Shown here: positions 1,488-17,046 of the stretch, in pieces | How positions within the stretch are numbered: position 1 is the stretch's first letter | How the letters are laid out: each line of letters begins with the position of its first letter | Assembly: GCF_014635245.1 (NCBI RefSeq) | Contig: NZ_BMCP01000002.1 | Location: 620,001 to 684,000, forward strand | DNA length: 64,000 nucleotides | Source: Agaricicola taiwanensis | Lineage (GTDB): Bacteria > Pseudomonadota > Alphaproteobacteria > Rhizobiales > Methylopilaceae | Direction of reading: 5' to 3' | Made by a program: the position numbers and the translations under genes | Notes under the pieces: generated by a model | The model's input: the letters and a program-made list of their open reading frames with translations, nothing else | Told to the model about the DNA's origin: nothing | Databases searched by the model: none

Positions 1488-2588
1488 ATGGGCGGTTTCG
1501 TGCTCGCATCTACCGGACGATTCACGATCGCCATGCTGGTCGGCGCCTTGGGCGGCGCAGCGTTCTATGCGCTGGGGCTGCCTCTGCCCTGGACCTTGGG
1601 CGCCATGGTCGCATCGGCGGTTGTCTCCATCGCAGGCCATGATTTCGGCGTGCCACTCTCGGTCCGGGATTTCGCGCGCCCGGTGGTTGGCGTCATGGCG
1701 GGAAGCGCGTTCTCGCCCGCCGTCATCGCCTCACTCGCCGCCTGGTGGCCGGCCATCCTCGTGATGCTCGGATATACTCTGGTTACGATCTTCCTGGGCG
1801 GGCTGTTCTTTCGAAAGCTCGTCGGCCTCGATCGCACCACTGCCTTCTTCGCGTCATCGCCCGGAGGGCTGGCTGAACTGACGCTGCTTGGCGGTTCCCT
1901 GGGAGGGGACCTGCGGAGCCTTGTGCTAATCCATTCGATGCGGGTGGTCGTCACGGTGTTCTCGGCGCCCTTTATCGTGCAATTCTTGTCAGGGTTGCCC
2001 GTGGACCGCAGCAAGGCTGTGGTGGCTCACGCCACGGCAATGGGCATCACCGATGGTGTCATTCTTCTCGCGTGCGCGGTCTTGGGCTTTCTGATCGGCA
2101 GGAGATACCGCATTCCCGGCGGCGTGATGATTCCGGCACTGGTATTGAGCGCGATTGTTCATTCCCTGGATCTCACGGCCTCGTCGCCTCCGGATTGGCT
2201 GGTTGCTGCTGTGCAGGTCGTCATTGGATCACTGGCCGGCTCGCGTTTTTCCGGCGTGCGCTGGGCGGAAATGACAAAGACCATGGTCGGCGGCTTTGTC
2301 TGGTGCCTGGTGCTCATTGCCGGCGCTGTGGTCTCGGCGGAGATCTGTACGCTCTTTCTGGAACCACCAGCGGCCGCGTTGGCTCTTGCCTTCATGCCCG
2401 GTGGCATGGCCGAAATGACCCTGATCGCCTATGCGATCGGCTTTGAGGTCGCGTTTGTGGTGACCTGCCAAGTCTGCCGCATCACCTTTGTCTTCATCAT
2501 CTCTCCCGTCCTTTACAACCAGTTGAGCCGCGCGGGTGCAGAATCCCCGGCGGCCGGGAAAGGCAAGAACAAGGCCGGGAAAGGCTAG
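1488..2588 (+). CDS. AbrB-family integral membrane protein
   Basis: 366 residues, strongly hydrophobic, with roughly ten predicted membrane spans in two similar halves, each carrying a glycine-rich motif (ASSPGGLAELTLLGG in the first half, AFMPGGMAEMTLIAYAIG in the second). This duplicated PGG-AE motif is the hallmark of the AbrB-like membrane family, often mislabelled as an ammonia monooxygenase or transcription regulator; the real function is unknown, probably transport. The C-terminus ends in a short Lys/Gly-rich tail (GKGKNKAGKG). It precedes a LysR gene and a tricarboxylate transporter operon, a common neighbourhood for this family. Confidence 0.75.
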   Translation: MGGFVLASTGRFTIAMLVGALGGAAFYALGLPLPWTLGAMVASAVVSIAGHDFGVPLSVRDFARPVVGVMAGSAFSPAVIASLAAWWPAILVMLGYTLVTIFLGGLFFRKLVGLDRTTAFFASSPGGLAELTLLGGSLGGDLRSLVLIHSMRVVVTVFSAPFIVQFLSGLPVDRSKAVVAHATAMGITDGVILLACAVLGFLIGRRYRIPGGVMIPALVLSAIVHSLDLTASSPPDWLVAAVQVVIGSLAGSRFSGVRWAEMTKTMVGGFVWCLVLIAGAVVSAEICTLFLEPPAAALALAFMPGGMAEMTLIAYAIGFEVAFVVTCQVCRITFVFIISPVLYNQLSRAGAESPAAGKGKNKAGKG

Positions 2589-2706: not shown

Positions 2707-2764
2707 CGCGCTCATGAACCGCGGTGATATCCTCCGGAAAAAATACAATATCGGAGGAAATATT

Positions 2765-3736
2765 ATGATCGCGATGAACCTGTTGCCCGGCATATCGGTG
2801 AACATGAACCTCCTGCAGGTGTTCATCCTGGTGGCGGAACATCTGAGTTTCAAAGAGGCGGCTGAGCGGGTTGGCCGTTCGCAGTCCGCCGTCAGCGCTC
2901 AGATCAAGCAGCTTGAAGACCAGCTTGGCGTTCCATTATTCTACAGGACGACGAGAAGCGTGGCGCTCACGCCTTATGGCGAGATACTCCTCAAAAGCGC
3001 GCGTCAGGGCATCAATGAACTCAATCTCGGTTTCAGGCGGCTGTTCGAGGCCGTCGATGTTCACAAGGGGCAGGTGACCCTTTCCTGCTCGCCCACCATC
3101 GCCGGCACGCGGCTTCCCGCCATCCTCAAAATGTTCGAGACGCAATACTCAGGTGTCAGGGTCGTGCTGGCGGAGTTGCCGCTGATCAAGATGACGGAGG
3201 CCATCCTCGCCGGTGATGTTGACTTCGGTGTCGGCCCGGTCTTTCCCTCCAGTCACAATCTGGAGTTTGAGCCTGTGCTGGAAGATCCCCTGATGGCGCT
3301 GGTACCCAGCAATTTTCCCGCAGCGGACAAGCCTTTCCTCACGGTGGACGAACTTGCGGAGATGCCCGTGCTGATGTCCACCAAGACCAGCGTAACCCGG
3401 CAGATCTTCGAGGCATCGGCAAAAAAATCCTCCGTCAGCTTCATAACCAAGTATCAGTGCACCCAGCATCAGACCCTCATTGCCATGGCGGAGGCGGGGC
3501 TGGGGATCGCTGTGCTTCCAAACACCGTGGCATCGCGCATCAGAACGTCCGGTGTCCGGGTTATCCCCCTCGCCAATCCGCGCATATGTCGCCAGGTCGC
3601 CATCATCACTGTTCGCGGCCAGAGGCTGCCCCCGGCGGCGTCACAGCTGGCAGACCTCATTCGAAAGAAAATCGATCTGCCCTTTGAAAGCGAGGTCATC
3701 CACCGAGGGGAGGTGGAGCTCGAAGCGGCGGGATAA
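2765..3736 (+). CDS. LysR-family transcriptional regulator
   Basis: 323 residues. The N-terminal winged helix-turn-helix is clear (LSFKEAAERVGRSQSAVSAQIKQLE), followed by an effector-binding domain of periplasmic-binding-protein fold (VTLSCSPTIAGTRLP onward). The frame is open upstream to 2714, but the ATG at 2765 has a strong ribosome binding site (GGAGG at 2753-2757, seven bases away). It is transcribed toward the TctCBA-crotonase-CoA-transferase operon and is the likely activator of it, responding to the substrate or an intermediate. A repeated CATAA palindrome lies just upstream of its own start. Confidence 0.9.
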   Translation: MIAMNLLPGISVNMNLLQVFILVAEHLSFKEAAERVGRSQSAVSAQIKQLEDQLGVPLFYRTTRSVALTPYGEILLKSARQGINELNLGFRRLFEAVDVHKGQVTLSCSPTIAGTRLPAILKMFETQYSGVRVVLAELPLIKMTEAILAGDVDFGVGPVFPSSHNLEFEPVLEDPLMALVPSNFPAADKPFLTVDELAEMPVLMSTKTSVTRQIFEASAKKSSVSFITKYQCTQHQTLIAMAEAGLGIAVLPNTVASRIRTSGVRVIPLANPRICRQVAIITVRGQRLPPAASQLADLIRKKIDLPFESEVIHRGEVELEAAG

Positions 3737-3986: not shown

Positions 3987-4979
3987 ATGGTTGGAGGTTT
4001 CGACCGACGCTTTTCCTTAAGCCGTCGCCAAGTTCTCATGGCGGGCGCCGCTGTCGCGGCAACCCCGCTGATGCCCGGGTCCGCGTTCGCTCAAGCGGGT
4101 TTCCCCAGTGAAACCATCGAGCTTCTGGTGCATGCCGGCGCAGGCGGCGGCACTGATCTGACGGCTCACGCTCTCATTAACGGTGGACGCTCGGAACTGG
4201 GGTGGCAAATGGCCCTCGTCCGCAAAACCGGTGCTGGCGGCGCTGTATCGCACGATTATGCCCTGAGCAGACCGGCGGATGGCCATACGGTCATCGTCCT
4301 GACCAGCTCTCAGATCTCCATCATCGCTCGGGGCAAATCCCCGCTGAAGATAGATGATATCGCGGGTGTTGGCCGCGGCACGGTGGATCCGATCTATCTC
4401 ATGGTCGGTGCCAAGAGCCCTTATAAAACCGCTCAAGAATTTCTCGAGGCCGGGAAGAAAAAATCCATGAGCGTCGGTCTCGTCAGCATTGGCGGCGGCG
4501 ACCACATCACAACCTTCCTTCTGGCGAAGATGGCCGACATGCAGCCCATGCAGGCGGTGCCGATTTCCAGTGGCGGAGAGGTCGCAATCAATCTCGTTGG
4601 CGGGAATCTCGACAGCGGCATGATCGGCATCAGCGAAGCCGATGCTCAGATCCGTTCCAACGTTGTTCGGCCACTGATCAACTTCAGTGAGAACCGCTCT
4701 CCTGAGTTGCCCGATGTGCCGACGGCGAGGGAATTGGGCATCGACCTGGTGCGACCGACCCTGCGCGGCTTTGCCGTGCTGAAGAAAACGCCACCGGATC
4801 GCCTTCAGATACTCCGCGACGGCTTTGCCAAGGCAATGGCCGCGCAAAGTTACCAGGAATATCTGAAAAGCTCTGGCATTCCGCTCGATAGCGCCGCTTC
4901 CGGAGAGGTGTTCGAGCAGTCGATCCGCCGCGAGCACGATGAAGCCAAGCTCGCTCTGACAGAACTTGGCTTGATGTAG
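3987..4979 (+). CDS. Tripartite tricarboxylate transporter substrate-binding protein (TctC/Bug family), system 1
   Basis: 330 residues, periplasmic receptor of a TctABC transporter. The N-terminus has a twin-arginine-like signal (SLSRRQVLMAG, then a hydrophobic run and a cleavage site near SAFAQA). The mature protein shows the Bug-family pattern: IELLVHAGAGGGTDLTAHAL near the start, DGHTVIVLTSSQIS, and PDVPTARELGID in the C-terminal lobe. Start supported by GGGAGG at 3972-3977. It heads an operon with TctB, TctA and four catabolic enzymes, so its ligand is probably the substrate of those enzymes. Bug proteins bind organic acids, usually through their carboxylates; the exact ligand is not readable. 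Confidence 0.88.
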   Translation: MVGGFDRRFSLSRRQVLMAGAAVAATPLMPGSAFAQAGFPSETIELLVHAGAGGGTDLTAHALINGGRSELGWQMALVRKTGAGGAVSHDYALSRPADGHTVIVLTSSQISIIARGKSPLKIDDIAGVGRGTVDPIYLMVGAKSPYKTAQEFLEAGKKKSMSVGLVSIGGGDHITTFLLAKMADMQPMQAVPISSGGEVAINLVGGNLDSGMIGISEADAQIRSNVVRPLINFSENRSPELPDVPTARELGIDLVRPTLRGFAVLKKTPPDRLQILRDGFAKAMAAQSYQEYLKSSGIPLDSAASGEVFEQSIRREHDEAKLALTELGLM

Positions 4980-5110: not shown

Positions 5111-5635
5111 ATGGATCACCACGACCGCCTTTCTGTTCCGGTAGCACCCGCTCCGCATCGCGCGCGGTCCCCGCGTTCGGCGCTTTACAACGACTATACG
5201 GTCGCCGGTATCATCATCGCGATCATTGCGGTCGTGTACTATCTCTCCACCCTGATCGAACAGGTGCCGGCCGGTCTTGCCCAGGGAATCCAGCCGGCCA
5301 GCTTTCCGCAGGGCGTTCTGGTATCGATCCTGGTGCTGCTTCTGCTCGCACTCTACGAGACGCGCGAGCAGGCGATGGAGGTGCCGGAGCCGGTGCCCGG
5401 TCTGGCCTATATGACCATGGCGGCGATGGTGATCTCCCTGGTGCTGGTGACCCAGGTGGATTTCTTCCTGGGGTTGATCGCTTTCGTGGTGGTCTGCGTG
5501 CCCTTATGGGGCATGCCGCGCCTGGGAATTGCGCTTCTTTACGCCCTTTGTCTGCACGCCGTGCTGTTTCTGCTGTTCTCAACCTTCCTGCGGGTGCGCT
5601 TTCCGGCAGGGCCGCTGACGAGCCTGTTTTCTTGA
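5111..5635 (+). CDS. TctB-family small membrane subunit, system 1
   Basis: 174 residues with four predicted membrane helices (for example YTVAGIIIAIIAVVYYLSTL and ALLYALCLHAVLFLLFSTFL). This is the small, poorly conserved subunit of tripartite tricarboxylate transporters, which associates with TctA in the inner membrane. It lies between tctC and tctA in the usual C-B-A order, 131 bases after tctC and 84 bases before tctA. The ribosome binding site is weak. Confidence 0.82.
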   Translation: MDHHDRLSVPVAPAPHRARSPRSALYNDYTVAGIIIAIIAVVYYLSTLIEQVPAGLAQGIQPASFPQGVLVSILVLLLLALYETREQAMEVPEPVPGLAYMTMAAMVISLVLVTQVDFFLGLIAFVVVCVPLWGMPRLGIALLYALCLHAVLFLLFSTFLRVRFPAGPLTSLFS

Positions 5636-5719: not shown

Positions 5720-7264
5720 ATGGATGCCTTTCTGTCCGGCGTTTCGATCGTCTTTGATCCCTACAATTTCATGCTGATCATAATGGGTCTCCTGATCGGC
5801 ACAGTGATCGGAATCCTGCCCGGCATCGGCGCCACCATGACGACGGCTCTGCTGCTGCCCTTCACCATGGTGATGCAGCCGTTGCCGGCGCTGTCACTGC
5901 TCCTGTCGATCTATTGTTCCAACGCTTTCGCAGGCGCAATTTCGGCAATCCTGGTGAATGTACCAGGCTCGTCATCTGCCATGATCACCTGCATCGAGGG
6001 GTATCCGTTGGCAAAACGCGGGGAGGCTGGGCGGGCGCTTGGTGTGGCAACGGTCGCCGGCACCTTAGCCGGCATTTTCAGCGTCTTCGCCTTTCTCTTG
6101 GCGGCACCGCTTCTGGCGGGTGTGGCCTATCAGTTCGGTCCTCCGGAATATTTCGCGCTGATGCTGTTTGCGCTTTCGATGGTAGCTTCCATCAGCAACG
6201 AAGGATCGGCCAAAAATCTCATTTCGGCTGCCTTCGGCGTGCTGCTCGGCACGGTCGGCATCGACTTCGTCACCGGCGCGGATCGCTTCACCTTCGGCTA
6301 CATGGGCCTGAGCGAGGGATTCAAGGTGGTGCCGATCCTGATCGGCCTTTTTGCCATCACCGAGCTCCTGCTGCAGACGCACACGCTGCACATCGTGGTC
6401 GAGCGCGTTGCCATGAAGGCGATGAAGTTGCCGAGCCGTGACGACTATAAGAAGATCTGGAAGGCGATCCTCAGCGGTTCGGGGATCGGCACCTTTATCG
6501 GCATTCTGCCCGCCGAGGGCGGCACGGTGGCTTCCATCGTCGCCTACAACGAGCAAAAGCGCTGGTCGCGCAACAAGCACGAGTACGGCAATGGGTCGAT
6601 CGAAGGGCTGGCAGCGGCCGAAGCGGCGAACAATTCCGCAACCGGCGGCGCCATGGTACCAACCCTTGCCCTGGGGATTCCCGGAAGCGCCGTTACCGCC
6701 GTGATCCTCGTTGGTCTGACCGCCCAGGGCGTGCGTCCCGGCCCCTATCTTTTCGAAGAACAGCCCGAGTTCATCTACGCTATATTCGCCATCATGCTGC
6801 TGGCCAACGTGCTGTGGCTGTTCATGGGTCTTCTGGGCGCGAAGGTATTCGCGCTGCTGACGCTGCTGCCGAATGCGCTTCTCTGGCCGTCTGTCTTCGT
6901 TCTGGCTGTGGTCGGCTCTTATTCTCTGGATCAGAGCATGATCGATGTCTGGGTCATGCTGGGCTTCGGTATCCTCGGCTACTTCATGAAACGGTTCGGA
7001 TTTTCCGTGGTACCACTCGCCATGGGGTTGATCCTCGGCGGTATGCTGGAAACCTCGCTCAAGCAGTCGATGATCATCTTCCAACAGGATTGGTCGCTAT
7101 TCTTCGTCCGTCCGATTGTGCTGTTCTTCTTCGCCTGCACGCTCGTTGGCGTCTTCTCAGCCCAGATCTTCGGCTTCATTAATCGGCGGCGCGACCGCAA
7201 ACTGGGCCTGAACGGAGGCGGGGGCGCGCCCGCCGCACCTGTAATGCGGGATCCCGCAAATTGA
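5720..7264 (+). CDS. TctA-family large membrane subunit, system 1
   Basis: 514 residues, about twelve membrane spans, the translocating subunit of a tripartite tricarboxylate transporter driven by ion gradient. Characteristic TctA motifs are present: GTVIGILPGIGATMT near residue 30, the second glycine-rich repeat FIGILPAEGGTVASIVAY near 260, and EAANNSATGGAMVPTLALGIPGS near 300. Normal length. AGGAG at 5705-5709 supports the start. The following crotonase gene begins 35 bases after its stop. Confidence 0.93.
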   Translation: MDAFLSGVSIVFDPYNFMLIIMGLLIGTVIGILPGIGATMTTALLLPFTMVMQPLPALSLLLSIYCSNAFAGAISAILVNVPGSSSAMITCIEGYPLAKRGEAGRALGVATVAGTLAGIFSVFAFLLAAPLLAGVAYQFGPPEYFALMLFALSMVASISNEGSAKNLISAAFGVLLGTVGIDFVTGADRFTFGYMGLSEGFKVVPILIGLFAITELLLQTHTLHIVVERVAMKAMKLPSRDDYKKIWKAILSGSGIGTFIGILPAEGGTVASIVAYNEQKRWSRNKHEYGNGSIEGLAAAEAANNSATGGAMVPTLALGIPGSAVTAVILVGLTAQGVRPGPYLFEEQPEFIYAIFAIMLLANVLWLFMGLLGAKVFALLTLLPNALLWPSVFVLAVVGSYSLDQSMIDVWVMLGFGILGYFMKRFGFSVVPLAMGLILGGMLETSLKQSMIIFQQDWSLFFVRPIVLFFFACTLVGVFSAQIFGFINRRRDRKLGLNGGGGAPAAPVMRDPAN

Positions 7265-7299: not shown

Positions 7300-8094
7300 A
7301 TGCAACTGGATACCGACAAGGTCCTGGCCGAAAAACGAGACGGGATCGGCTGGCTGACCTTCAACAACCCCGAACGGCGCAACGCCATGAGCCTTGAGAT
7401 GTGGCGGGCCGTCGGAGTGGTGCTGGAAGATTTCGAGAAGGATCCCGACGTTCGCGTCGTGGTCATGACGGGCGCAGGCGGCAAGTCCTTCGTTTCCGGC
7501 GCTGATATCTCGCAGTTCGAGGACCAACGGAAGAATGCGGAGCAGGCGGAGGCCTACGCCAAGATCTCCGACGGCGCCAAGAAGAAGATGGCGACGCTGG
7601 AGAAGCCGCTCATCGCCATGATCCATGGCTTCTGCATCGGCGGGGGGCTTGGCATCGCAACATCAGCGGACATCCGCATTGCCACGGAGGATTCCCGCTT
7701 TGGCATACCGGCAGCAAAGCTGGGTCTCGCCTATGCCTTCGACAGCCTAAGGAAGCTGGTCGACCTCGTGGGCCCCGCTTTTGCCAAGGAGATCATGTTC
7801 ACAGGGCGGCGGCTGAATGCCGAGGAGGCTTTGCGCATCGGCCTAATCAATCGGGTCGTCCCGGTCGACCAGTTGGAAACGACGGTCAAGGAGATGGCGG
7901 CGGAGATCGCAGGCAACGCGCCGCTCACGGTGCGCTCGGCCAAGATCACCATCGACGAGGCGTTGAAAGATGTTTCGGCGCGCGACATGGCGCTGGTCGA
8001 GGAGAGCTTCAAGCGCTGTTTCGACAGTCAGGACTACGCCGAGGGCCGGCGCGCTTTCATGGAAAAGCGTACCCCAGCGTTCACCGGCGCCTGA
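7300..8094 (+). CDS. Enoyl-CoA hydratase/isomerase (crotonase) family protein lacking the catalytic glutamates
   Basis: 264 residues from the ATG at 7300, which has GAGG at 7287-7290; the frame is open further upstream. Crotonase fold is clear: the oxyanion-hole segments are GGKSFVSGADI (about 60-70) and HGFCIGGGLGIATSADI (109-125). In hydratases GGGCE and QPE supply two catalytic Glu residues twenty positions apart. Here both are replaced, by Gly118 in GGGLG and Ala138 in GIPAAKLG. It is therefore unlikely to be a standard enoyl-CoA hydratase; crotonase relatives also act as isomerases, decarboxylases, thioesterases or C-C hydrolases. Part of the TctCBA operon, next to a CoA-transferase that could make its substrate. 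Confidence 0.85.
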   Translation: MQLDTDKVLAEKRDGIGWLTFNNPERRNAMSLEMWRAVGVVLEDFEKDPDVRVVVMTGAGGKSFVSGADISQFEDQRKNAEQAEAYAKISDGAKKKMATLEKPLIAMIHGFCIGGGLGIATSADIRIATEDSRFGIPAAKLGLAYAFDSLRKLVDLVGPAFAKEIMFTGRRLNAEEALRIGLINRVVPVDQLETTVKEMAAEIAGNAPLTVRSAKITIDEALKDVSARDMALVEESFKRCFDSQDYAEGRRAFMEKRTPAFTGA

Positions 8095-8112
8095 GTGGGT
8101 CGAGGTCCGATC

Positions 8113-9237
8113 ATGGATGCAGCAGTCGATGCAGTGGTAATCGGAGCGGGAGTGGTGGGCCTCGCCATTGCCCGCAGCCTCGCCCAGGCCGGACTTGAGG
8201 TCGTTGTCCTCGAGGCGGAAGAGGCGATCGGCATGGGCACGAGCTCGCGCAACAGCGAGGTCATCCATGCCGGCATCTATTATCCCAAGGACAGTCTCAA
8301 GGCCCGCCTCTGCGTGGCCGGCAAAGCCATGCTCTATGACTATTGTCAGGACCGAGGCGTGCCGCACAAACGGCTCGGAAAGCTCATCGTGGCGACCGAG
8401 GAAGGTCAGCTTCCGGTCCTCGACGGCATAAAGGACAAGGCGGCGGCCAACGGGGTCACGGACCTGCGCGTGATCTCGGAGAAGGAGGCCATCGCGCTGG
8501 AGCCGGCCCTGCAGTGCGCCGGAGCCCTGGTGTCACCGTCCACCGGCATCATCGACAGCCATGCCCTGATGCTCGCCTACCTCGGCGATGCCGAGAACAA
8601 TGGCGCCGTCTGCGCCTTGAACAGTCCCGTCGGCGATATCACCGTCACAACGGGAGGCTTTGAGATCCGCCTTGAAGGCCAGGACTATGCCTTCTCATGC
8701 CGCTATCTTGTGAATGCGGCTGGGCTCGGCGCCCAGGAGATCGCGAAACGCTTAGAGGGCTTGCGGGCAGAAACCATCCCGCAGCTCCACATGGCCAAGG
8801 GAAACTATTACGCGCTGCGTGGCCGCTCGCCGTTCGGCCATCTGATCTATCCCGTACCCGAACCGGGTGGTCTGGGCGTGCACCTGACCTTGGACATGGC
8901 AGGCCAGGCCCGTTTCGGTCCTGATGTTGAATGGGTGGACCGGATCGATTATCGGGTCGACCCCACTCGCAGCGCCGCCTTCTACGCCGCCATCCGCCGC
9001 TATTGGCCCGCGCTTCGTGATGAATGCCTTGAACCGGCCTATGCCGGCATCCGCCCCAAGGTGGTGCCGCGCGGCCAATCGGACGCCGACTTCGTCATTC
9101 AGAGCGAAGCGGAGCACGGCGTCCCCAACCTCATCTGCCTTTACGGAATGGAGTCGCCAGGGCTGACGGCCTCGCTGGCGATCGCGGACTGGTGCCGCGA
9201 AAAGCTCCTACGTGCCGGAGTGGCTTCTGCAGCCTGA
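8113..9237 (+). CDS. FAD-dependent oxidoreductase, L-2-hydroxyglutarate dehydrogenase-like
   Basis: 374 residues of the DAO/glycine oxidase superfamily. The N-terminal Rossmann motif is [18 protein letters not shown] (about 6-24). The segment [17 protein letters not shown] is typical of L-2-hydroxyglutarate oxidase (LhgO) relatives, as is the C-terminal YAGIRPK region. Start at ATG 8113 with GAGG at 8102-8105, 18 bases after the crotonase. LhgO-type enzymes oxidise L-2-hydroxy acids to 2-oxo acids and pass electrons to the quinone pool or oxygen. In this operon a 2-hydroxy acid derived from the imported compound is the likely substrate; true 2-hydroxyglutarate activity is not proven. Confidence 0.85.
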
Positions 9238-9254
9238 GAAAGAGAGCACATCCA

Positions 9255-10487
9255 ATGGAACAGTCTGTCGAACAAATGACCAATGTGACGGCCACACCCG
9301 TGTCGGATCAACCGTTGCCTCTGGCGCGTTTCAAGGTGCTCGAACTCACCCTGGCGCGAGCCGGCCCAACGGCGGCAAGACATCTGGCGGACTGGGGCGC
9401 CGACGTGCTGCGGGTGGAGCCTCCCATGGCGCTGTCCAATGCCGAGGATTATACCGGTCGGCGCTTCGGCCCCGACCGGCTCAATCTCCACCGAAACAAA
9501 AAATCGATGACGCTGAACCTGAAGGAGCCGGAGGGCAGGGCGATCTTCATGAAGCTCGTCGAGCAGTCGGACGTCATCATCGAGAACATGCGCGCCAATG
9601 TGAAACATCGGCTGGGCATCGACTATGAGAGCGTCTCCAAGGTCAATCCGCGTATCGTCTACGGCAGCATTTCCGGCTTCGGCCAGACGGGCCCTTACAA
9701 GGATCGCGCCGGCGTCGACCAGATCGTGCAGGGCATGGCGGGCCTGATGTCCGTGACCGGTCATCCCGGGCAGGGACCCGTGCGGGCCGGCATTCCGGTG
9801 ATCGATCTTACCGCGGGCGGGTTCCTGGCCCAAGGCATCATGGTGGCGCTGCTGGAGCGGGAAGTGACCGGCAAGGGACGCTGGGTGCACACCTCTCTTC
9901 TGGAATCGATGATCGCCATGCTGGACTTCCAGGCCGCGCGTTACCTGATGGCCGGCGAAGTCGCCGGCCAGGCGGGCAACAACCATCCCACCAGCATCCC
10001 GACCGGCCTGTTCCCTGCATCCGACGGGCAGATCCTCCTGGGAGCTGCAGGGGACAGGCTCTGGATCCGGTTCTGCCAAGCGGCCGGTTGCGAGGAGTTC
10101 CTGACAGACGAGCGCTACAGCACCAGCGGGGCACGGCTGAAGAATCGCGATGAACTCAACGAGAAGATCGGACAGATCACCAAGCAGAAATCCATGCAGT
10201 ATTGGTTCGATGTTCTCAGCGAGGCAGGCGTTCCCTGCGGTCCGATCAACACCATCGACAAGGTGTTCGAGGACAAGCAGGTGCAGCATGTGGGCATGAC
10301 CATGGCGGTGCATCACGACACGCTTGGCGATCTGAACATGGTGGCCCAGCCTTACAACATCGAAGGACACGATAAATACATCCGCTGCGCGCCGCCCAGC
10401 CTCGGCGAGCAGACGGATGACGTCCTCAAGAGCTTGGGCTACACGCCTGAGCAGATCACCGATCTCCACGAGCGAACCATCGTCTGA
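9255..10487 (+). CDS. CaiB/BaiF-family (class III) CoA-transferase
   Basis: 410 residues. The N-terminal signature of the family is visible (KVLELTLARAGPTAARHLADWGADVLRVEPP), followed by NKKSMTLNLKEPEGRAIF and the conserved GQTGPYKDRAGVDQIVQGMAG. Class III enzymes move CoA between carboxylic acids using a catalytic Asp, here probably one of those in the region after NLKEPEG or at RAGVDQ; I cannot fix it by eye. Start at ATG 9255. Located between the flavoprotein and the hydroxy acid oxidase, it probably activates the imported acid to its CoA ester for the crotonase. Relatives include carnitine, formyl-CoA, succinyl-CoA:citramalate and itaconate transferases. Confidence 0.88.
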   Translation: MEQSVEQMTNVTATPVSDQPLPLARFKVLELTLARAGPTAARHLADWGADVLRVEPPMALSNAEDYTGRRFGPDRLNLHRNKKSMTLNLKEPEGRAIFMKLVEQSDVIIENMRANVKHRLGIDYESVSKVNPRIVYGSISGFGQTGPYKDRAGVDQIVQGMAGLMSVTGHPGQGPVRAGIPVIDLTAGGFLAQGIMVALLEREVTGKGRWVHTSLLESMIAMLDFQAARYLMAGEVAGQAGNNHPTSIPTGLFPASDGQILLGAAGDRLWIRFCQAAGCEEFLTDERYSTSGARLKNRDELNEKIGQITKQKSMQYWFDVLSEAGVPCGPINTIDKVFEDKQVQHVGMTMAVHHDTLGDLNMVAQPYNIEGHDKYIRCAPPSLGEQTDDVLKSLGYTPEQITDLHERTIV

Positions 10488-10550
10488 TCGTCAGGTCGCA
10501 GGTGGCGGGGGCGGGGTGCTGCCTCTGCAGACAGGGGAAGCAAAGCAAAG

Positions 10551-11804
10551 ATGGCGGGTATTTCCGTATCAACGCCTGGGGGCACTCAGACTTTCGAGAC
10601 AACCACCGCCACCTATGGCGGAAAGGTGGGAGGCGGCCCCAGACGGCTGCGTGGGGTGCTCGCGCTGGAAGATTTCGAAGCGCTCGCCAGAAAACATCTG
10701 CCACGGCCGATCCTCGACTATGTCGCGGGCGCGGCGGAGACCAATTTCTCCTTAAAGGACAATCGCGCAGCATTCGCGGACTATGGCTTCGTCACCCGTG
10801 TGTTGAGTGATGTGTCGAAGCGCTCCCAGGCCACCGAGCTCTTTGGCAAGACCTACGCCACCAGTTTCGGCATCGCACCCATGGGGCTCAGCGCTCTGGT
10901 GGCTTATCAAGGCGACATAGCGCTCGCCCGCGCCTCGGCGCAGCGCAACATCCCAATGATCGTCAGCGGTTCAGCGCTGACGCGGCTGGAAGATGTGCGC
11001 GAGGTGGCTCCAGACGCCTGGTTTCAGGCCTATCTGCCGGGTGATCCTGTAAAGATCGCGGCCCTGGTGCAACGCGTCGCGAACGCCGGTTATGAGACGC
11101 TCGTGCTCACGGTCGACACCGCAACGCGGGCCAACCGGGAAAACAACATTCGCGCGGGCTTCGCCACGCCGCTGCGCCCCAGCCTGCGTCTGGCGTGGGA
11201 CGGCGTCATCCGCCCGCGCTGGACGATCGGCACCTTCCTGCGCACGCTGGTGAAACACGGCGTACCGCATTTCGAGAATTCCTTCTCAACGCGGGGAGCA
11301 CCTATCATCTCGCGCAATGTGGAGCGTGATTTCAGCATGCGCGACCATCTCAACTGGTCGCATTTGCGCGAGATCCGGCGGCAGTGGAAAGGCAATCTGG
11401 TGGTCAAGGGCATCATGGGCACCGAAGACGCCAAGGTCGCACGCGCCGAGGGTGCCCAGGGCATTATCGTATCGAACCACGGCGGCCGGCAACTCGACGG
11501 AACCGTGTCACCGCTGCGTGTCCTGGAGCGGGTGGCCTCGGTCGCCGGCGACATGACGGTCATGATGGACGGCGGCATCCGGCGCGGCACTGATGTTCTG
11601 AAGGCGAGGGCACTCGGCGCCCGCTTCGTCTTCGTGGGAAGGCCCTTCCTATGCGCGGCCGCCATTGCCGGCGAGGTGGGCGTGCGGCATGCCATCGACA
11701 CACTGTCCAACGAGATCACGCGGAACATGGCGCTGATCGGCATCAACAGTCTGGACGAGATGTCCCGTGACTTCCTGGTGCCGGTCCGGCAGCAGCAGGT
11801 GTAA
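10551..11804 (+). CDS. FMN-dependent alpha-hydroxy acid oxidase/dehydrogenase (LldD/glycolate oxidase family)
   Basis: 417 residues of the (S)-2-hydroxy acid dehydrogenase family. FMN- and substrate-binding elements: ALEDFEALARKHLP and DYVAGAAETN at the N-terminus, LVVKGIMGTEDAKVARAEGA with the flavin lysine, SNHGGRQLDG with the catalytic His and substrate Arg, and DGGIRRGTDVLKARALGA plus FVGRPFL for the phosphate. It converts L-lactate, glycolate, mandelate or similar 2-hydroxy acids to 2-oxo acids. It is the last gene of the seven-gene transport/catabolic operon, converging on the liv operon from the other strand. The operon thus encodes two unrelated 2-hydroxy acid oxidising flavoproteins. 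The N-terminal 30 residues before the domain are Gly/Thr-rich. Confidence 0.87.
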   Translation: MAGISVSTPGGTQTFETTTATYGGKVGGGPRRLRGVLALEDFEALARKHLPRPILDYVAGAAETNFSLKDNRAAFADYGFVTRVLSDVSKRSQATELFGKTYATSFGIAPMGLSALVAYQGDIALARASAQRNIPMIVSGSALTRLEDVREVAPDAWFQAYLPGDPVKIAALVQRVANAGYETLVLTVDTATRANRENNIRAGFATPLRPSLRLAWDGVIRPRWTIGTFLRTLVKHGVPHFENSFSTRGAPIISRNVERDFSMRDHLNWSHLREIRRQWKGNLVVKGIMGTEDAKVARAEGAQGIIVSNHGGRQLDGTVSPLRVLERVASVAGDMTVMMDGGIRRGTDVLKARALGARFVFVGRPFLCAAAIAGEVGVRHAIDTLSNEITRNMALIGINSLDEMSRDFLVPVRQQQV

Positions 11805-11830: not shown

Positions 11831-12472
11831 TCACTGCGAGATCGGCTCCATTACGATGGCGGGGCGGCCGCTGATGATGGTGTTGTCCAGCATATCGAGG
11901 CGATCCTGCCCCCAGAAGGGTTCGTCGCGATAGAAGTAATAGGGCGCGCCAAAGAGCTGGCGGTCGATGGCTTCCCGGGTCAGGGCTTGTTCCTGCTCAT
12001 GCAAGGCAGCTTCATCCGACCGCTCCAGCAGGGCCCGGCCATTCAGACCGTTCTGATCGGCAAGACGCACGAGGGTGTCCGGATCCGCGATGTTCAATTC
12101 ATCCGCCCAGACCGCCTTCAGGCCGGCGTGGACGAAGGTGCTGACGTCTGCGCCATCGGCTATTGCGGCCAGGAGCATCCGATGTCCGAGCGAGGGATCG
12201 GCAGGATAGAACTTGGGATGGAGGAGCAGCGGGATGCCGCGAATATCGCGCCACCTCTGCATCTCGACCAACCGGTAAGCCTGGCGCTGCGGCGGCCGTT
12301 CCTTGACTGGTTTGCCGCCCCCGGCGGCGAAGACCTGCAGAAGGTTGATGGGCTTGAATATGACCTCTGCATCGTGACGCCGCACGAGATCCTGGAACAC
12401 GCGGCTGCCTATGTAGGACCAGAGGGAGATGAAGCTGAAGTAGTATTCGATCCTGGGGCGGGTCTCGGTCAT
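11831..12472 (-). CDS. 2-hydroxychromene-2-carboxylate isomerase-like, DsbA-family fold
   Basis: 213 residues. The N-terminal IEYYFSFISLWSYIGSRVFQ matches the start of glutathione-dependent 2-hydroxychromene-2-carboxylate isomerase (NahD), whose usual motif is FDFxSPxSY; here the Ser and Tyr are kept while Asp and Pro are changed. The middle GRALLERSDE and the C-terminal LFGAPYYFYRDEPFWGQDRLDML are typical of the family (canonical GVFGVPTF.. WGQDRL). The naphthalene-pathway enzyme isomerises a ring-fission product; homologues act on unknown aromatic intermediates. It is the last gene of the livKHMGF operon, four bases after livF, which hints that the transporter handles an aromatic acid. Confidence 0.8.
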   Translation of the reverse strand: MTETRPRIEYYFSFISLWSYIGSRVFQDLVRRHDAEVIFKPINLLQVFAAGGGKPVKERPPQRQAYRLVEMQRWRDIRGIPLLLHPKFYPADPSLGHRMLLAAIADGADVSTFVHAGLKAVWADELNIADPDTLVRLADQNGLNGRALLERSDEAALHEQEQALTREAIDRQLFGAPYYFYRDEPFWGQDRLDMLDNTIISGRPAIVMEPISQ

Positions 12473-12475
12473 TGA

Positions 12476-13195
12476 TCAGGTTCCCATATAGGCGGCGAGA
12501 ATGGACGAATCGGCCGCGATGACGTCGGAGGGCCCGTTACGCACGGTGCGGCCCTGATCCATGATGTAGACATGGTCAGCCAGCTCCAGGGCGATGCCGA
12601 CATCCTGTTCGACCACAAGCAAGCTTGCGCCGTCGGCCCGCACGCGGTGGAGCGTTTCCACGAGCTGGTCGACGACCGCCGGCGCCAGACCCAGCGAAAG
12701 CTCGTCGATCAGCAGCAGTCTGGGGGCCGCCATCAATCCGCGCGCGATGGCACACATCTGTTGCTCGCCGCCGGACATGGTGGTCGCATCCTGGCGGCGG
12801 CGCTCGGCCAGGCGTGGGAAGAGATCGTACATCCGCTCCAGATCGGCTCTGATGGCGGCCTTGCCATCCTGGCGCCGATAGGCGCCAAGCAGCAGATTGT
12901 CGTGCACGGAGAGCCCCGTGAAGAGCCGCCGGCCCTCCGGCACATGAGCGATGCCATTGTCCACGAAGTCACGCGGCGACGCGCCGGCAAGATCGCGGCC
13001 GCCGATGACGATGCTGCCGCGAAGCGGACGCAGAAGCCCGGAGAGCGCGCGCAACAGCGTGCTTTTTCCCGCGCCGTTCGAGCCGATCAGAGCCGTTGTC
13101 GTGCCATGCCGGACGACAAGATCCGCCGACCACACAACCTGAACGTCGCCATAGGCGACTTCCAGGCCCTGGACGTCCAGCAGGATCCCGCTCAT
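12476..13195 (-). CDS. livF: Branched-chain/aromatic acid ABC transporter ATPase LivF
   Basis: 239 residues, one of two ATPases of a HAAT-type importer. Walker A GSNGAGKST, signature MSGGEQQM, Walker B LLLIDELSLGLAP and the LivF-type ending are all intact. Start overlaps the livG stop (ATGA), indicating translational coupling. The family imports branched-chain amino acids, amides, urea or aromatic acids; the isomerase gene directly downstream favours an aromatic or related acid. Confidence 0.92.
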   Translation of the reverse strand: MSGILLDVQGLEVAYGDVQVVWSADLVVRHGTTTALIGSNGAGKSTLLRALSGLLRPLRGSIVIGGRDLAGASPRDFVDNGIAHVPEGRRLFTGLSVHDNLLLGAYRRQDGKAAIRADLERMYDLFPRLAERRRQDATTMSGGEQQMCAIARGLMAAPRLLLIDELSLGLAPAVVDQLVETLHRVRADGASLLVVEQDVGIALELADHVYIMDQGRTVRNGPSDVIAADSSILAAYMGT

Positions 13196-13944
13196 ATGCC
13201 GGCTCCTGCCATCCGCTCGGCAAAGCGGCGGCCGAGATAGGCTTCGACGACCGTTTCATCGCTCAGGACCTGAGCAACCGGACCATCGGCGATCAACCGG
13301 CCGTGGTGCAGAACGATGACGCGTTGCGCGGTCCGGGTCACCACCTTCATCAAATGCTCGATGAGGAAGATGGTGATGCCTCTGTTGGCGATCGAGGCAA
13401 TGAGTTCGAGCGCGTTATCGATCTCGGCGGGATTGAGGCCGGCGTTCACCTCATCAAGCATCAGGAGCTTCGGACGCAAGGCCAGACTCTTTGCGAGCTC
13501 CAACCGCTTGCGGCCGGCGAGCGTGAGGGCGGAGGCGGGCTTTCCCGCCTGATCCGCGAGGCCGCAGAACTCAAGGTGATGCGCGGCCGCGTCCCGCGCT
13601 TCTGCGATGGAGGCCGCACCACCTGCGAAAAGTGCGGCGGCAGTCACATTTTCAAGCACTGTCATCGCGGGAAATGGCTGAACCACCTGAAATGTCCGCG
13701 CGATGCCGAGCCGGGCGATGCGGTCCGGCCTTTCGCGCTTGATGGATCGACCGGAGAAGGTGATGTCGCCTTCGTCGGCCTTGTGGACGCCGGTGATGAC
13801 ATTGACGAGCGTTGTCTTGCCGGCGCCGTTCGGCCCGATGAGGCCCACGATCTCGCCGGGTGCCAGGGCCAGGTTGATGTTATCCAGCGCAACGAGGCCG
13901 CGGAAGCGCTTCGTCACGCCCGTGATCTCCAGCAGAGGCCTCAT
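13192..13944 (-). CDS. livG: Branched-chain/aromatic acid ABC transporter ATPase LivG
   Basis: 250 residues. Walker A GPNGAGKTT, Walker B LLMLDEVNAGLNP and the C-terminal LivG extension ending VVEAYLGRRFAE are present. The signature region reads ALTLAGRKRLELAKSL instead of the common LSYGQQRRLE, a variant I would still expect to be active because the Walker motifs and catalytic Glu are intact. Overlaps livM by four bases at its start and livF at its end. Confidence 0.92.
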   Translation of the reverse strand: MRPLLEITGVTKRFRGLVALDNINLALAPGEIVGLIGPNGAGKTTLVNVITGVHKADEGDITFSGRSIKRERPDRIARLGIARTFQVVQPFPAMTVLENVTAAALFAGGAASIAEARDAAAHHLEFCGLADQAGKPASALTLAGRKRLELAKSLALRPKLLMLDEVNAGLNPAEIDNALELIASIANRGITIFLIEHLMKVVTRTAQRVIVLHHGRLIADGPVAQVLSDETVVEAYLGRRFAERMAGAGI

Positions 13945-14885
13945 GACGGCTGTCTCCTGCGGGTCAGGAGGTGGAAAAGGCCGCGGCCGCGAATCTCACT
14001 AAGGCCACCCGGCAGGAACAGAACGAGCAGCACGACCATCAGGCCGAGAATGCCGGCGTGAAACTCCAGAAGATTCCGCCAGAGCAGTTCCTCCAGCGCA
14101 AGATAGGTGAATGCCCCAAGCAGCGGCCCGAAGATGGTGCCGACACCGCCCAGCAATGCCATGAGGATGGGCTTGATCGAGAGCGCCCCATCATAAACGT
14201 CCGTTGGGTCGATGTAGGTGACCCATGACGCATAGACCCCGCCGACGAACCCGACGAAAAGGCTGGACAGCATGAAGCCGAATGTTTTCGCCTTTCGGGT
14301 GTCGACGCCGATGATCTGCGCGGCGTCCTCGTTCTGGGCGATGCAGCGCAGTGCCATGCCAAGTCTTGACCGGTCCAGCCAGATCGTGGCGGCCAAAGCG
14401 ATGGCCGCGAGACTGAGCATGGCGACCAGGTAGAATTGGGCCTGACCGATGACGCTGCCATCGATCAGCGGCAGGTTGATCCCCATGCCTCCGCCGGTCA
14501 CATCTGTCCATGAGTTCGTCAGCTCGCGCAGGACTTCCGCGACGACGAGGCTGGCGATGGCGAAGTAGCGGCCGCGCAGGTGAAGAATGGCCGTGCCCAG
14601 GAGACCGGCAAAGAGGGCCGCAACAGCGCCGGACAGCGCCACCGCAACGGGAAGCGGAAGCCCGGCATTCTGGCCGACAGCGGTGATATAGGCACCCAGC
14701 CCGAAGAAGGCGGCGGTGGCAAAGGAGGGATAACCGGCAAAGCCGCCGATGATGTTCCACGACAGGGCGAGCGTTGCGTACATTCCGAAGATCGTCGCAA
14801 GGCGGATCACATAGGCGTCAGCCTGAGCCAGTCCGAAAATGGCCAGAACCGTCGCAGCGGCGATAAGGACGAGGCGCAGCGTCAT
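13941..14885 (-). CDS. livM: Branched-chain/aromatic acid ABC transporter permease LivM
   Basis: 314 residues, about eight to nine membrane spans, with the LivM-type loop GRYFAIASLVVAEVLRELTN and the cytoplasmic coupling segment DRSRLGMALRCIAQNEDAAQ. GIDVRRTYAIAF-like sequence of the family appears as GVDTRKAKTFGFMLSS. It forms the membrane channel with LivH. Coupled to neighbours by four-base overlaps. Confidence 0.92.
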   Translation of the reverse strand: MTLRLVLIAAATVLAIFGLAQADAYVIRLATIFGMYATLALSWNIIGGFAGYPSFATAAFFGLGAYITAVGQNAGLPLPVAVALSGAVAALFAGLLGTAILHLRGRYFAIASLVVAEVLRELTNSWTDVTGGGMGINLPLIDGSVIGQAQFYLVAMLSLAAIALAATIWLDRSRLGMALRCIAQNEDAAQIIGVDTRKAKTFGFMLSSLFVGFVGGVYASWVTYIDPTDVYDGALSIKPILMALLGGVGTIFGPLLGAFTYLALEELLWRNLLEFHAGILGLMVVLLVLFLPGGLSEIRGRGLFHLLTRRRQPS

Positions 14886-15748
14886 GCGAAGCCCCGTTTG
14901 CCGAGAAGGCCGGATGGACGGACGGCCAGGAGCAGGATGAGCAGCAGGAAAGCGAGCGTCATGGCATGTTCGGGGCCGAGGAACAGCGCACCAAAGCTCT
15001 CGATGATGCCAAGTGCGAAACCGCCGAGCACGGCTCCTGGAATGCTGCCGAGCCCGCCGAGCACGCAGATGACGAAAGCCTTGCCGAGATAACCCGCGGA
15101 CGCGACCGGCGAGATTGGGAAGATCACGCTGAGGAGCGCGCCTGCGCAGCCTGCCATGAAAGCACCCAGACCAAAGGCGATCGCATAGGTGCGGCGTACG
15201 TCGATGCCCAGGAGAGCCGCTGCATCACGGTCCATCCGCACGGCGATGATGGCGCGGCCGAGCTGCGTTGTGCGCAGTAGGAGCGCGAGAAGGCCGATGA
15301 GGATCAAACCGATGACGGTGGCATAGATCCGGTCGGCGGGCACCACGATCGCACCGAGATCAAACACACCCAGCGGTGGGTCAAGCAGCACCTTGCGATA
15401 ATCCGCGCTGAACAGGGCCAGCATGGAATTGTCGAGGAAGAGATTGAGGCCAAAGGTCAGCAGCAGGGTGATGAGGAAGGGTCGTGCCATGACGTGATTG
15501 ATCACCAGGCCCTGCACACCCGCGCCCAGAACGAACAGGACCGCTCCTGCGACAGGCGCGAAAAGCAACGGATTGATGCCCCACTGCTGATGGGCGAAGA
15601 AGGCGAGGTACCCGCCGAGCACGATCAGTGAGCCGTGGAGGATGTTGATCACGCTCAGCACGCCCCACACCAGCGAAAAGCCCACGGCGATGCAGGCGTA
15701 GAGACCGCCCACCGCCAGACCGTTGACGAAAACCTGCAACCACAGCAT
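14882..15748 (-). CDS. livH: Branched-chain/aromatic acid ABC transporter permease LivH
   Basis: 288 residues, about eight membrane spans. N-terminal VNGLAVGGLYACIAVGFSLVWGVLSVINILHG and coupling-helix segment LGRAIIAVRMDRDAAALLGI are classical LivH features. First permease of the operon, 55 bases after the binding-protein gene. Confidence 0.92.
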   Translation of the reverse strand: MLWLQVFVNGLAVGGLYACIAVGFSLVWGVLSVINILHGSLIVLGGYLAFFAHQQWGINPLLFAPVAGAVLFVLGAGVQGLVINHVMARPFLITLLLTFGLNLFLDNSMLALFSADYRKVLLDPPLGVFDLGAIVVPADRIYATVIGLILIGLLALLLRTTQLGRAIIAVRMDRDAAALLGIDVRRTYAIAFGLGAFMAGCAGALLSVIFPISPVASAGYLGKAFVICVLGGLGSIPGAVLGGFALGIIESFGALFLGPEHAMTLAFLLLILLLAVRPSGLLGKRGFA

Positions 15749-15803
15749 CGGGGATCTTCCTCAGCACGCCGCACCGTTTCCAGTGCGGCGCCTCGTTTGT
15801 CTG

Positions 15804-17003
15804 TCAGTTTTGCGGGGCGGTGCGGAATTCGCTGGTTGCGATTTCCTGGGGTACCACGACCTCCACCTTGCCGTTCTGTATTTGCAGCACGGGCGGAACA
15901 TACGAGTTCGCAATACCCGAAGGGGCGAATGAGATCGGGCCGAAGAAGGTCTTGAAGCCACCCTTCTGAAGCTCGGTGCGGACCTTGTCATGATCGGTCG
16001 AGCCGGCCCGTTCGATGGCAAGCTGCAGAACCACGCCGACCGCAGCGCCGGAGGCCTGGGTGAAATCGGGCTCCGAGCCATACTTCTGCTTGAACAGTTC
16101 GACGAACTTGGCGGAGGAGCCGAAAACATCGTCGCTCTGATATTTCACGACGGGGTGAAACCAGCTGGCCGTGGTCACATTCTCGGCGAGGGGGCCGACG
16201 GCATCGATCCATTCCTGATAGGCCGGGCCATTGATCAGGGTGAAGACGCTGCCACTGATCCTGAGGTCCGCCGCCTGTTTGCGCACGGTGATGAGATCAT
16301 TGATGTAGCCGGTGACAATGATCCAGTCAGGGTTGGTCGCCCGAAGCTGCGTCAGTGCCGAGGCATGATCGAGCGTGCCGATGGCATACTTTTCGAAGAA
16401 AACAACCTCGAGGCCGCGCTTCTTGGCGCTCTTCTCGAACTCGTTCGCCAGGGAAAGCGGATAGAGATCGTTGCGTGCGAGGATGGCAACCCGCTTGGCA
16501 TCCGGCAGCTTGGTCTTGACCAGCTCGGCGATGGGTTCGCTGAAGGTGCTGTTGTCGGTATAGACCCCGAAGAGGTTCTTGTAGCCTTGATCAAAGACTT
16601 CGACCGACGAGGCGGAAGAGGCGATCATAGGCACGCCGTATTTCTCCGCCACCGCGCTGGTGGCCTTGGTTGCGCCGGAGCCGAAGGGCGAGAAGAGGAA
16701 GTTCACCTTGTCGTCGGTGATGAGCTTTTCCGCCAGCTGAATGGCACGAGGCGTCGCCGACTGATAATCATAGTAGCGCAGCTCCACCTTCAGCTGCTGA
16801 TCGCCGACCTTGATGCCGCCGGCGGCATTGACCTGGTCCTGCCAGAGCTCATAGCCCTGCTTGAGCTTGGTTCCTTCGGGCGACAATGCACCCGTGACGG
16901 GCAGGGGCGCTCCGATGAGGAGCTTATCCTGTGCGAAAGAGGATGTGCTGCCCGCAGCGGCCAAAACGAGACCTGCGAGCAGCGGGCGAATGCCGAGCTT
17001 CAT
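15804..17003 (-). CDS. ABC transporter periplasmic substrate-binding protein, LivK/amide-binding family
   Basis: 399 residues with a Sec signal peptide (MKLGIRPLLAGLVLAAAG, cleavage near SSFAQD). The mature protein has the type I periplasmic-binding fold: LLIGAPLPVTGALSPEG at the start, LFSPFGSGATKATSAVAEKYG for ligand contact, and VAILARNDLYPLS. I chose the ATG at 17003 over the one at 17012 because AGGG then lies about nine bases upstream instead of touching the start. This is the first gene of the livKHMGF-isomerase operon and defines the substrate, which cannot be read from sequence. Confidence 0.87.
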   Translation of the reverse strand: MKLGIRPLLAGLVLAAAGSTSSFAQDKLLIGAPLPVTGALSPEGTKLKQGYELWQDQVNAAGGIKVGDQQLKVELRYYDYQSATPRAIQLAEKLITDDKVNFLFSPFGSGATKATSAVAEKYGVPMIASSASSVEVFDQGYKNLFGVYTDNSTFSEPIAELVKTKLPDAKRVAILARNDLYPLSLANEFEKSAKKRGLEVVFFEKYAIGTLDHASALTQLRATNPDWIIVTGYINDLITVRKQAADLRISGSVFTLINGPAYQEWIDAVGPLAENVTTASWFHPVVKYQSDDVFGSSAKFVELFKQKYGSEPDFTQASGAAVGVVLQLAIERAGSTDHDKVRTELQKGGFKTFFGPISFAPSGIANSYVPPVLQIQNGKVEVVVPQEIATSEFRTAPQN

Positions 17004-17046
17004 GATATGCATCCCTGAAGGTAATCTGAGTGATGTGACAGAGGTG

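Follow-up and report, generated by a model that had tools for sequence, protein, structure and literature searches.

A stretch of 64,000 nucleotides from Agaricicola taiwanensis (contig NZ_BMCP01000002.1, positions 620,001 to 684,000; here termed the window and numbered from its first letter) contains, between positions 3987 and 11804, seven co-directional genes that encode a tripartite tricarboxylate transporter (TTT) in the order TctC-TctB-TctA, followed by a crotonase, a flavin adenine dinucleotide (FAD)-dependent oxidoreductase, a class III coenzyme A (CoA)-transferase and a flavin mononucleotide (FMN)-dependent hydroxy-acid dehydrogenase (Table 1). A first-pass annotation had described the latter four as an operon, and their open reading frames (ORFs) were confirmed on the + strand behind the transporter genes, separated by about 18, 17 and 63 bp. 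All seven products score above the cut-off of their respective Pfam families (ECH_1, DAO, CoA_transf_3, FMN_dh, TctC, TctB and TctA), and the transporter is thus complete. Our study concerns the crotonase, which lacks both catalytic glutamates of enoyl-CoA hydratases, and its conserved pairing with the CoA-transferase.

Table 1. Coordinates of the operon, of adjacent genes in the window and of two loci elsewhere that carry relatives of the FMN enzyme
Feature	Position	Strand	Evidence or remark
Crotonase, NF004781/PRK06127 family	7300..8094	+	ATG start; NF004781 393.2 bits vs cut-off 291; ECH_1
FAD-dependent oxidoreductase, DAO family, LhgO superfamily	8113..9237	+	ORF opens with GTG at 8095; PF01266 225.6 bits
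Class III (CaiB/BaiF) CoA-transferase	9255..10487	+	PF02515 377.1 bits vs 23.3
FMN-dependent alpha-hydroxy-acid dehydrogenase/oxidase	10551..11804	+	PF01070 405.3 bits
TctC, periplasmic solute receptor of the TTT	3987..4979	+	PF03401 84.6 bits vs 27
TctB, small membrane subunit	5111..5635	+	PF07331 33.2 bits vs 29.1
TctA, large membrane subunit	5720..7264	+	PF01970 485.8 bits; 78% identical to TctA of L038
LysR-family regulator	2714..3736	+	PF00126 and PF03466; upstream of tctC
AbrB-type membrane protein, possible associate	1488..2588	+	PF05145 248.4 bits vs 29.2
glaH, then FMN alpha-hydroxy-acid oxidase	L185 6872-9125		oxidase about 60% identical to that of the window
glaH, then FMN alpha-hydroxy-acid oxidase	L241 4897-7125		oxidase about 60% identical to that of the window

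Enoyl-CoA hydratases contain two catalytic glutamates, Glu144 and Glu164 in the rat enzyme, whose oxyanion hole is formed by the backbone NH groups of Ala98 and Gly141. In an alignment with the Escherichia coli proteins PaaF, CaiD, MenB, PaaG and ScpB, Gly118 and Ala138 of the window crotonase occupy the columns of the glutamates of PaaF and CaiD, and the residues of the oxyanion hole, Ala68 and Gly115, are retained, which corroborates what had been read from the sequence in the first-pass annotation. The loop that carries a PGxGGTQRL-type sequence in hydratases is replaced. A model of the protein predicted with AlphaFold2 (mean predicted local distance difference test, pLDDT, 92.8) has its closest fold neighbour in 4k2n (Z 35.5, root mean square deviation 1.5 over 261 residues), with Glu, Ile and Met at the positions equivalent to 118, 138 and 145, followed by 4olq (Z 34.8), and 4wcz is found at Z 32.9. 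Within the best 50 rows each of Foldseek and VIA-align, the model is placed among hydratases and unassigned crotonases; ScpB does not appear in these rows, which is uninformative.

The altered residues are a property of the group. Relatives were collected among genome contigs (the top 80 of 250), among 385 genomes of the same class and among plasmids (28 records at 1e-50). Anchors with 45% or more identity to the window protein numbered 207, and those that were at least 80% identical to a kept one were dropped, leaving 110 non-redundant relatives of 45.7-74% identity, the window protein itself not included. Position 138 is Ala in all 110 proteins and none carries Glu at position 118, where Ala (60), Gly (32), Asn (8), Ser (4), Gln (4) and Leu (2) are found. 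The crotonase is thus unusual in the absence of both glutamates, as initially proposed, but it is not a one-off. Tyr145 is present in 109 of the relatives, the sole exception (L164) carrying Cys, and other near-invariant positions include Ser71 and Arg126 (110 each), Arg77 (109) and Cys112 (107), besides Gly115 (108) and Ala68 (106) of the oxyanion hole. A first set of 128 aligned homologues contained Ala138 and Tyr145 throughout and Glu118 in no case. Six more distant relatives of 38-43% identity were examined, five of which join the family with Tyr145 and with Gly, Ala, Ala, Ser or Pro at position 138, one of the five (L246) having Glu118; the sixth, L162 from Halomonas (40%), has kept both glutamates and groups elsewhere. 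The family and the five distant relatives stay one clade in the tree without motif columns (24 rows, support 99/99).

Among the best 25 of 73 NCBIfam models matched by the window crotonase, only NF004781 (PRK06127), which bears the name ‘enoyl-CoA hydratase’, passes its cut-off, and all of the 38 scanned members of alignment A1 match this model at 1e-88. The label is doubtful because the relatives lack both catalytic glutamates as well, and from these sequence comparisons the common annotation of NF004781 is probably wrong, and it is highly improbable that the window crotonase is an ordinary hydratase. In the open-licence literature searched we found neither a characterized member of NF004781 nor a matching pathway, the string PRK06127 being likewise absent there, and no close homologue with an ordinary hydratase role emerged in the searches made.

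The conserved partner of the crotonase is the CoA-transferase, a relative of which is located within 4 kb in 79 of the 110 loci and further out in seven, with six loci ending within 1300 bases upstream of the crotonase. Both genes are on the same strand in 74 of 75 close pairs and the CoA-transferase is upstream in 71, the window and locus L038 showing the minority arrangement with the CoA-transferase downstream. The distance matrices of both proteins are correlated (Mantel r 0.54, with none of 1000 permutations as high), a correlation that could also be given by a shared species history. The remaining neighbourhood is variable and includes ABC, TRAP and TTT transporters, GntR regulators, amidases, aldolases and other genes. 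The conserved transferable unit is the pair of CoA-transferase and crotonase, which is combined with differing transporters and acid-converting enzymes. The four enzymes, grouped as one operon in the first-pass annotation, do not form a conserved pathway set, as each flavoprotein is found within 4 kb of the crotonase in a single one of the 110 loci (the FMN enzyme in L038 and the FAD enzyme in L195).

Asp184 of the CoA-transferase aligns with an Asp of its best solved relatives, by entry name a formyl-coenzyme A transferase (10uh) and a succinate--hydroxymethylglutarate CoA-transferase (9br7), and we take this residue to be the nucleophile of class III enzymes. Since these names are accompanied by a best hit, out of seven NCBIfam models, to a succinate-glutarate CoA-transferase (NF052585, 286.6 and thus below the cut-off of 750), it is plausible that the protein takes a dicarboxylic acid as acceptor. 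The model for the L-carnitine CoA-transferase CaiB (NF002914) scores 134.3, far from its cut-off of 413, and a carnitine-type route had thus been set aside rightly.

Variations of the pair were observed at several loci. Two tandem CoA-transferase genes, possibly encoding a two-subunit transferase, precede the crotonase in L041, L042 and L047, and in L120 the pair is present twice in a row. In Variovorax paradoxus VAI-C, the gene directly behind the pair (L163, 8786-9562) encodes another crotonase, which has diverged strongly and carries Asp at position 118, Ala at 138 and Tyr at 145. In Sphingobium sp. CFD-1, a strain linked to carbofuran breakdown, the pair (L165, 8001-9977) is plasmid-borne and has genes for an acyl-CoA dehydrogenase, a fumarylacetoacetate hydrolase and VOC proteins around it.

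The two flavoproteins and the transporter are local additions to the pair. The sole near-complete copy of the set, L038 from Roseitranquillus sediminis, has a different gene order and no FAD enzyme was found there; the identities to the proteins of the window are 74% for the crotonase, 75% for the CoA-transferase, 68% for the FMN enzyme, 78%, 52% and 62% for TctA, TctB and TctC and 49% for the AbrB-type protein. In L195 (8582-12785), a 60% identical FAD enzyme is encoded downstream of the pair on the same strand. The names ‘LhgO-like’ and ‘LldD-like’ that had initially been given to the flavoproteins are appropriate for hydroxy-acid-type enzymes at superfamily level but not beyond, as the LhgO model (NF008726) reaches 219.7 of a required 299 on the FAD enzyme (best stretch residues 6-271) and the FMN L-lactate dehydrogenase models NF033901 and PRK11197 reach 230.3 of 550 and 256.6 of 376 on the FMN enzyme. 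The closest solved chains are 3dme (454 bits) for the FAD enzyme and the (S)-mandelate dehydrogenase 6bfg (251.7 bits) for the FMN enzyme, and a start at the ATG at 10551 would give the latter about 30 additional residues at its N-terminus. In the single record examined, the closest plasmid relative of the FAD enzyme is surrounded by surface-polysaccharide genes, a context that says little.

More can be read from the surroundings of the FMN enzyme, relatives of which (58.8% and 60.1% identical) directly follow glaH, the gene of a glutarate 2-hydroxylase whose product is L-2-hydroxyglutarate, on plasmids of Paraburkholderia sprentiae and Cupriavidus basilensis. This place is occupied by lhgO in E. 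coli (PMC6265302). An FMN oxidase that follows glaH is a candidate for a second, non-LhgO type of L-2-hydroxyglutarate dehydrogenase. Other relatives are found after TctABC in Agrobacterium vitis and, across a stretch without a listed gene, after TctCB in Rhizobium. Together, these contexts hint at the oxidation of 2-hydroxy-dicarboxylates.

As a tentative explanation, which we consider to fall clearly short of an even chance, we propose that the operon serves the catabolism of an organic acid taken up by the cell, most likely a (hydroxy)dicarboxylate, and that the crotonase would cleave the dicarboxylic CoA ester made by the CoA-transferase by decarboxylation. The transporter would bring the acid into the cell, the FAD and FMN enzymes would oxidize a 2-hydroxy acid within the pathway, which may be of the 2-hydroxyglutarate type, and the CoA-transferase would move CoA from succinyl-CoA or the product CoA ester to the diacid, whose thioester carbonyl would be held in the oxyanion hole of the crotonase while the bond beside the resulting enolate is broken. 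Our analysis supports the general notion, already part of the first-pass annotation, of a route via CoA thioesters that has its own transporter.

Decarboxylation appears to be the most likely chemistry of the crotonase, to which we would assign roughly a third of the likelihood, because it does not require a glutamate base and because Tyr145 stands at the place of Tyr140 of E. coli ScpB, which we take to be an active-site residue of this methylmalonyl-CoA decarboxylase. Both tyrosines coincide in an alignment that is free of gaps from the oxyanion Gly to position 145. Seven paralogues, taken from 11 further matches in the genome, were compared, and none has a Tyr at this position, nor do PaaF, PaaG, CaiD and MenB. 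A Tyr is present there in two solved but functionally unassigned proteins, 4wcz (Gly, Pro and Tyr at 118, 138 and 145) and 4olq (the same protein as 5c9g; Ser, Pro and Tyr), with a ScpB-like string TP..LG..Y. The ability of the crotonase fold to decarboxylate without the glutamates of hydratases is illustrated by PksI, which acts on 3-methylglutaconyl thioesters in dependence on a histidine (PMC7501309). In L166 and L167 a malonyl-CoA synthase is encoded one gene from the pair.

Several observations weigh against this proposal. The model for methylmalonyl-CoA decarboxylase (NF008506) scores 173.3 on the window crotonase, below its cut-off of 257 and below several hydratase models, ScpB still has the first of the two Glu and contains His66 where the family has Ala68, the Tyr is replaced by Cys in L164, and an equivalent of the PksI histidine was not shown in the window crotonase. 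In trees calculated from all columns, ScpB and the family share one split, with support of 89/89 in the first careful tree, made after four near-identical Bradyrhizobium rows had been removed, and of 75/83 in a later one, made after the removal of three duplicates; a first FastTree had joined them likewise. This split depends on the motif columns and is gone once they are removed, although a single clade is not rejected (approximately unbiased test, p-AU 0.4). When 4olq, 4wcz and 4k2n were included and five long-branched rows left out, the Tyr label has to change at least twice on account of the starred branches of the tree from all columns, and four changes, one of them forced by starred branches, are needed without the motif columns. 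Since the enlarged trees require several such changes, convergence is a simple reading, and the match of Tyr145 to Tyr140 may be convergent and would then provide weaker support for a common function. Descent from methylmalonyl-CoA decarboxylase is not claimed, as the union is lost both without the motif columns and with the three solved sequences. Relatives of ScpB were absent at 1e-70 from 299 genomes of the phylum in a search without positive control and present in eight plasmid records at 1e-30. With respect to the gene context, neither flavoenzyme is part of the conserved pair, and MatB-like ligases are no commoner within 4 kb (4 of 110) than further out (8 of 110), the only close MatB among the four being that of L167 (68%, the others 25-31%). 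Finally, the genome does not contain a match to the GlaH family PF08943, for which the E. coli control was positive.

The same searches bear on specific pathways. A route for glutarate via GlaH was rejected based on the absence of PF08943, and a malonate route on the distribution of MatB-like ligases and on L182, where a close MatB homologue is adjoined by the usual malonyl-CoA decarboxylase; a search of the genome with PF05292 gave no match, but neither did its control, and it is thus uninformative. For an itaconate route (Ict-Ich-Ccl), whose key partner had been considered missing, no HpcH_HpaI-type citramalyl-CoA lyase was detected among ten proteins scanned, the rest of the genome not being searched.

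Other chemistries of the crotonase have to be weighed against decarboxylation. Unlikely, though deserving of serious attention, is a beta-elimination (as C-S or C-O lyase) or an isomerization of a double bond or epimer on the CoA ester, for which the acid and base would be residues other than the two glutamates, such as Tyr145. In its favour, crotonases outside of the family also lack one or both glutamates (as in the PaaG and MenB columns), and Variovorax paradoxus TBEA6 handles 3,3'-thiodipropionate (TDP) with comparable kinds of genes (PMC6370202, PMC8102459). However, the likeness of its crotonase Ech-20 to the window protein is one of gene kind, its activity was not shown by its authors, and the proteins of the operon do not include an acyl-CoA dehydrogenase. 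A hydrolase, which would either release the acid from its thioester or open a 2-oxo CoA ester by retro-Claisen cleavage of a C-C bond, has precedents in the crotonase superfamily (PMC1431709) and could find its substrate in a 2-oxo acid produced by the flavoproteins. We regard it as improbable, since the CoA that has just been transferred would be wasted unless a C-C bond is broken, the separate PaaI-type thioesterase encoded behind the pair in L166 and L167 would be redundant, and a catalytic Glu/Asp pair was not identified in the crotonase. The lowest likelihood is assigned to an ordinary hydratase or dehydratase that employs different residues, in which case the NCBI name would be right. 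It could be defended by the next-best NCBIfam scores after NF004781, which belong to the hydratase models PRK06144 (241.8 bits) and PRK05809 (222.0 bits), and by the hydratases among the closest folds. It is countered by the lack of both glutamates in all 110 relatives examined, by the replaced loop and by AcuH of Roseovarius nubinhibens (also called AcuK), where all activity is gone when either Glu is changed to Ala (PMC5651017), a result that also substantiates the initial view of the crotonase as unlike an ordinary hydratase.

A further alternative concerns the operon rather than the chemistry, namely that the flavoproteins and the pair serve two different acids and share only the transporter operon. 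The rarity of either flavoprotein near the pair would be in line with this view, as would the FMN homologues beside Tct genes in A. vitis and Rhizobium, whose listed neighbours include neither a CoA-transferase nor a crotonase. We nevertheless consider it quite unlikely, given that the FMN enzyme, TctABC, the CoA-transferase and the crotonase are found together again, in another order, in Roseitranquillus (62-78% identity, TctB 52%) and that the FAD enzyme reappears behind the pair in L195.

Matches to the crotonase at E <= 1e-70 were obtained in 84 of 385 sampled genomes of the class, the window's own included. In the bacterial family to which the window belongs, the crotonase is absent at 1e-60 from all 17 other genomes searched, and it therefore appears that the gene was either gained in this genome or lost in the others. 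The base composition bears no sign of a recent arrival of the operon, whose G+C content (0.616) does not stand out from that of the window (0.620). Scans for promoters and terminators gave no more hits than in shuffled sequences. Based on its position upstream of tctC, the LysR-family protein is the probable regulator of the operon. AbrB-type genes are close to TTT genes also in L038 and, as annotated, in L166 and L167. On the opposite strand beside the operon (11831-17012) are genes for a DSBA-fold protein and then, judged from translations only, for an apparent branched-chain amino acid ABC transporter.

Collectively, a curated model labels as hydratase a group that is present in more than a fifth of the surveyed genomes of the class although all of its examined relatives lack both glutamates. 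Should this group decarboxylate, malonate-type or glutaconate-type diacids would gain an additional route that depends on CoA. A further step, which we find rather doubtful, would be to regard the NF004781 crotonases as widespread unrecognized CoA-ester decarboxylases that form a two-gene cassette with a class III CoA-transferase (diacid + acyl-CoA -> diacyl-CoA, then CO2 release), in which case many genes named enoyl-CoA hydratase would be misnamed. As the two genes occur together so often, a simple assay could be built from two proteins, and mutagenesis could be aimed at the near-invariant Tyr.

Among characterized systems, the TBEA6 route for TDP resembles the operon by its kinds of genes, which include growth-essential crotonases, CoA activation, a flavin-dependent 2-hydroxy-acid dehydrogenase (Fox, VPARA_05580) and uptake via TctC (VPARA_44430), the latter needed for growth on TDP and encoded elsewhere in the genome (PMC6370202, PMC8102459). 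Ech-20 (VPARA_05520) of this strain is required for growth on TDP and is stabilized by TDP-CoA, with beta-elimination being one of two proposed variants of its reaction (PMC6370202). The route differs in its sulfur-specific genes mdo and acdA, in its acyl-CoA dehydrogenases and in the separate location of tctC. The GlaH-LhgO pathway for glutarate shares the LhgO superfamily and the FMN homologues behind glaH on two plasmids, whereas the window genome lacks GlaH and its FAD enzyme remains under the cut-off of the LhgO model.

With respect to the pair, the acrylate system AcuN/AcuK and the carnitine system CaiB/CaiD also combine a CoA-transferase with a crotonase, and AcuN and CaiB both belong to class III. 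In contrast to the window crotonase, which has neither Glu, CaiD has both and AcuH/AcuK requires both (PMC5651017). The structures 4olq/5c9g from Hyphomonas and 4wcz from Novosphingobium lack Glu at either site and have Tyr at position 145, but they are 34-35% identical, contain Pro at position 138 and are by title only putative enoyl-CoA hydratases/isomerases. ScpB/YgfG (1ef8, 6n92) shares the crotonase fold, the aligned Tyr, the absence of a Glu at the second position and a CoA-transferase gene as neighbour. It differs in Glu113 at the first position, in His66 instead of Ala68 and in not forming one clade with the family in the enlarged trees, and its neighbour ScpC, encoded beside a mutase gene, is a propionyl-CoA:succinate CoA transferase, presumably of class I. 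If the pair does act in decarboxylation, it would resemble formyl-CoA transferase and oxalyl-CoA decarboxylase, but with a crotonase in place of the latter.

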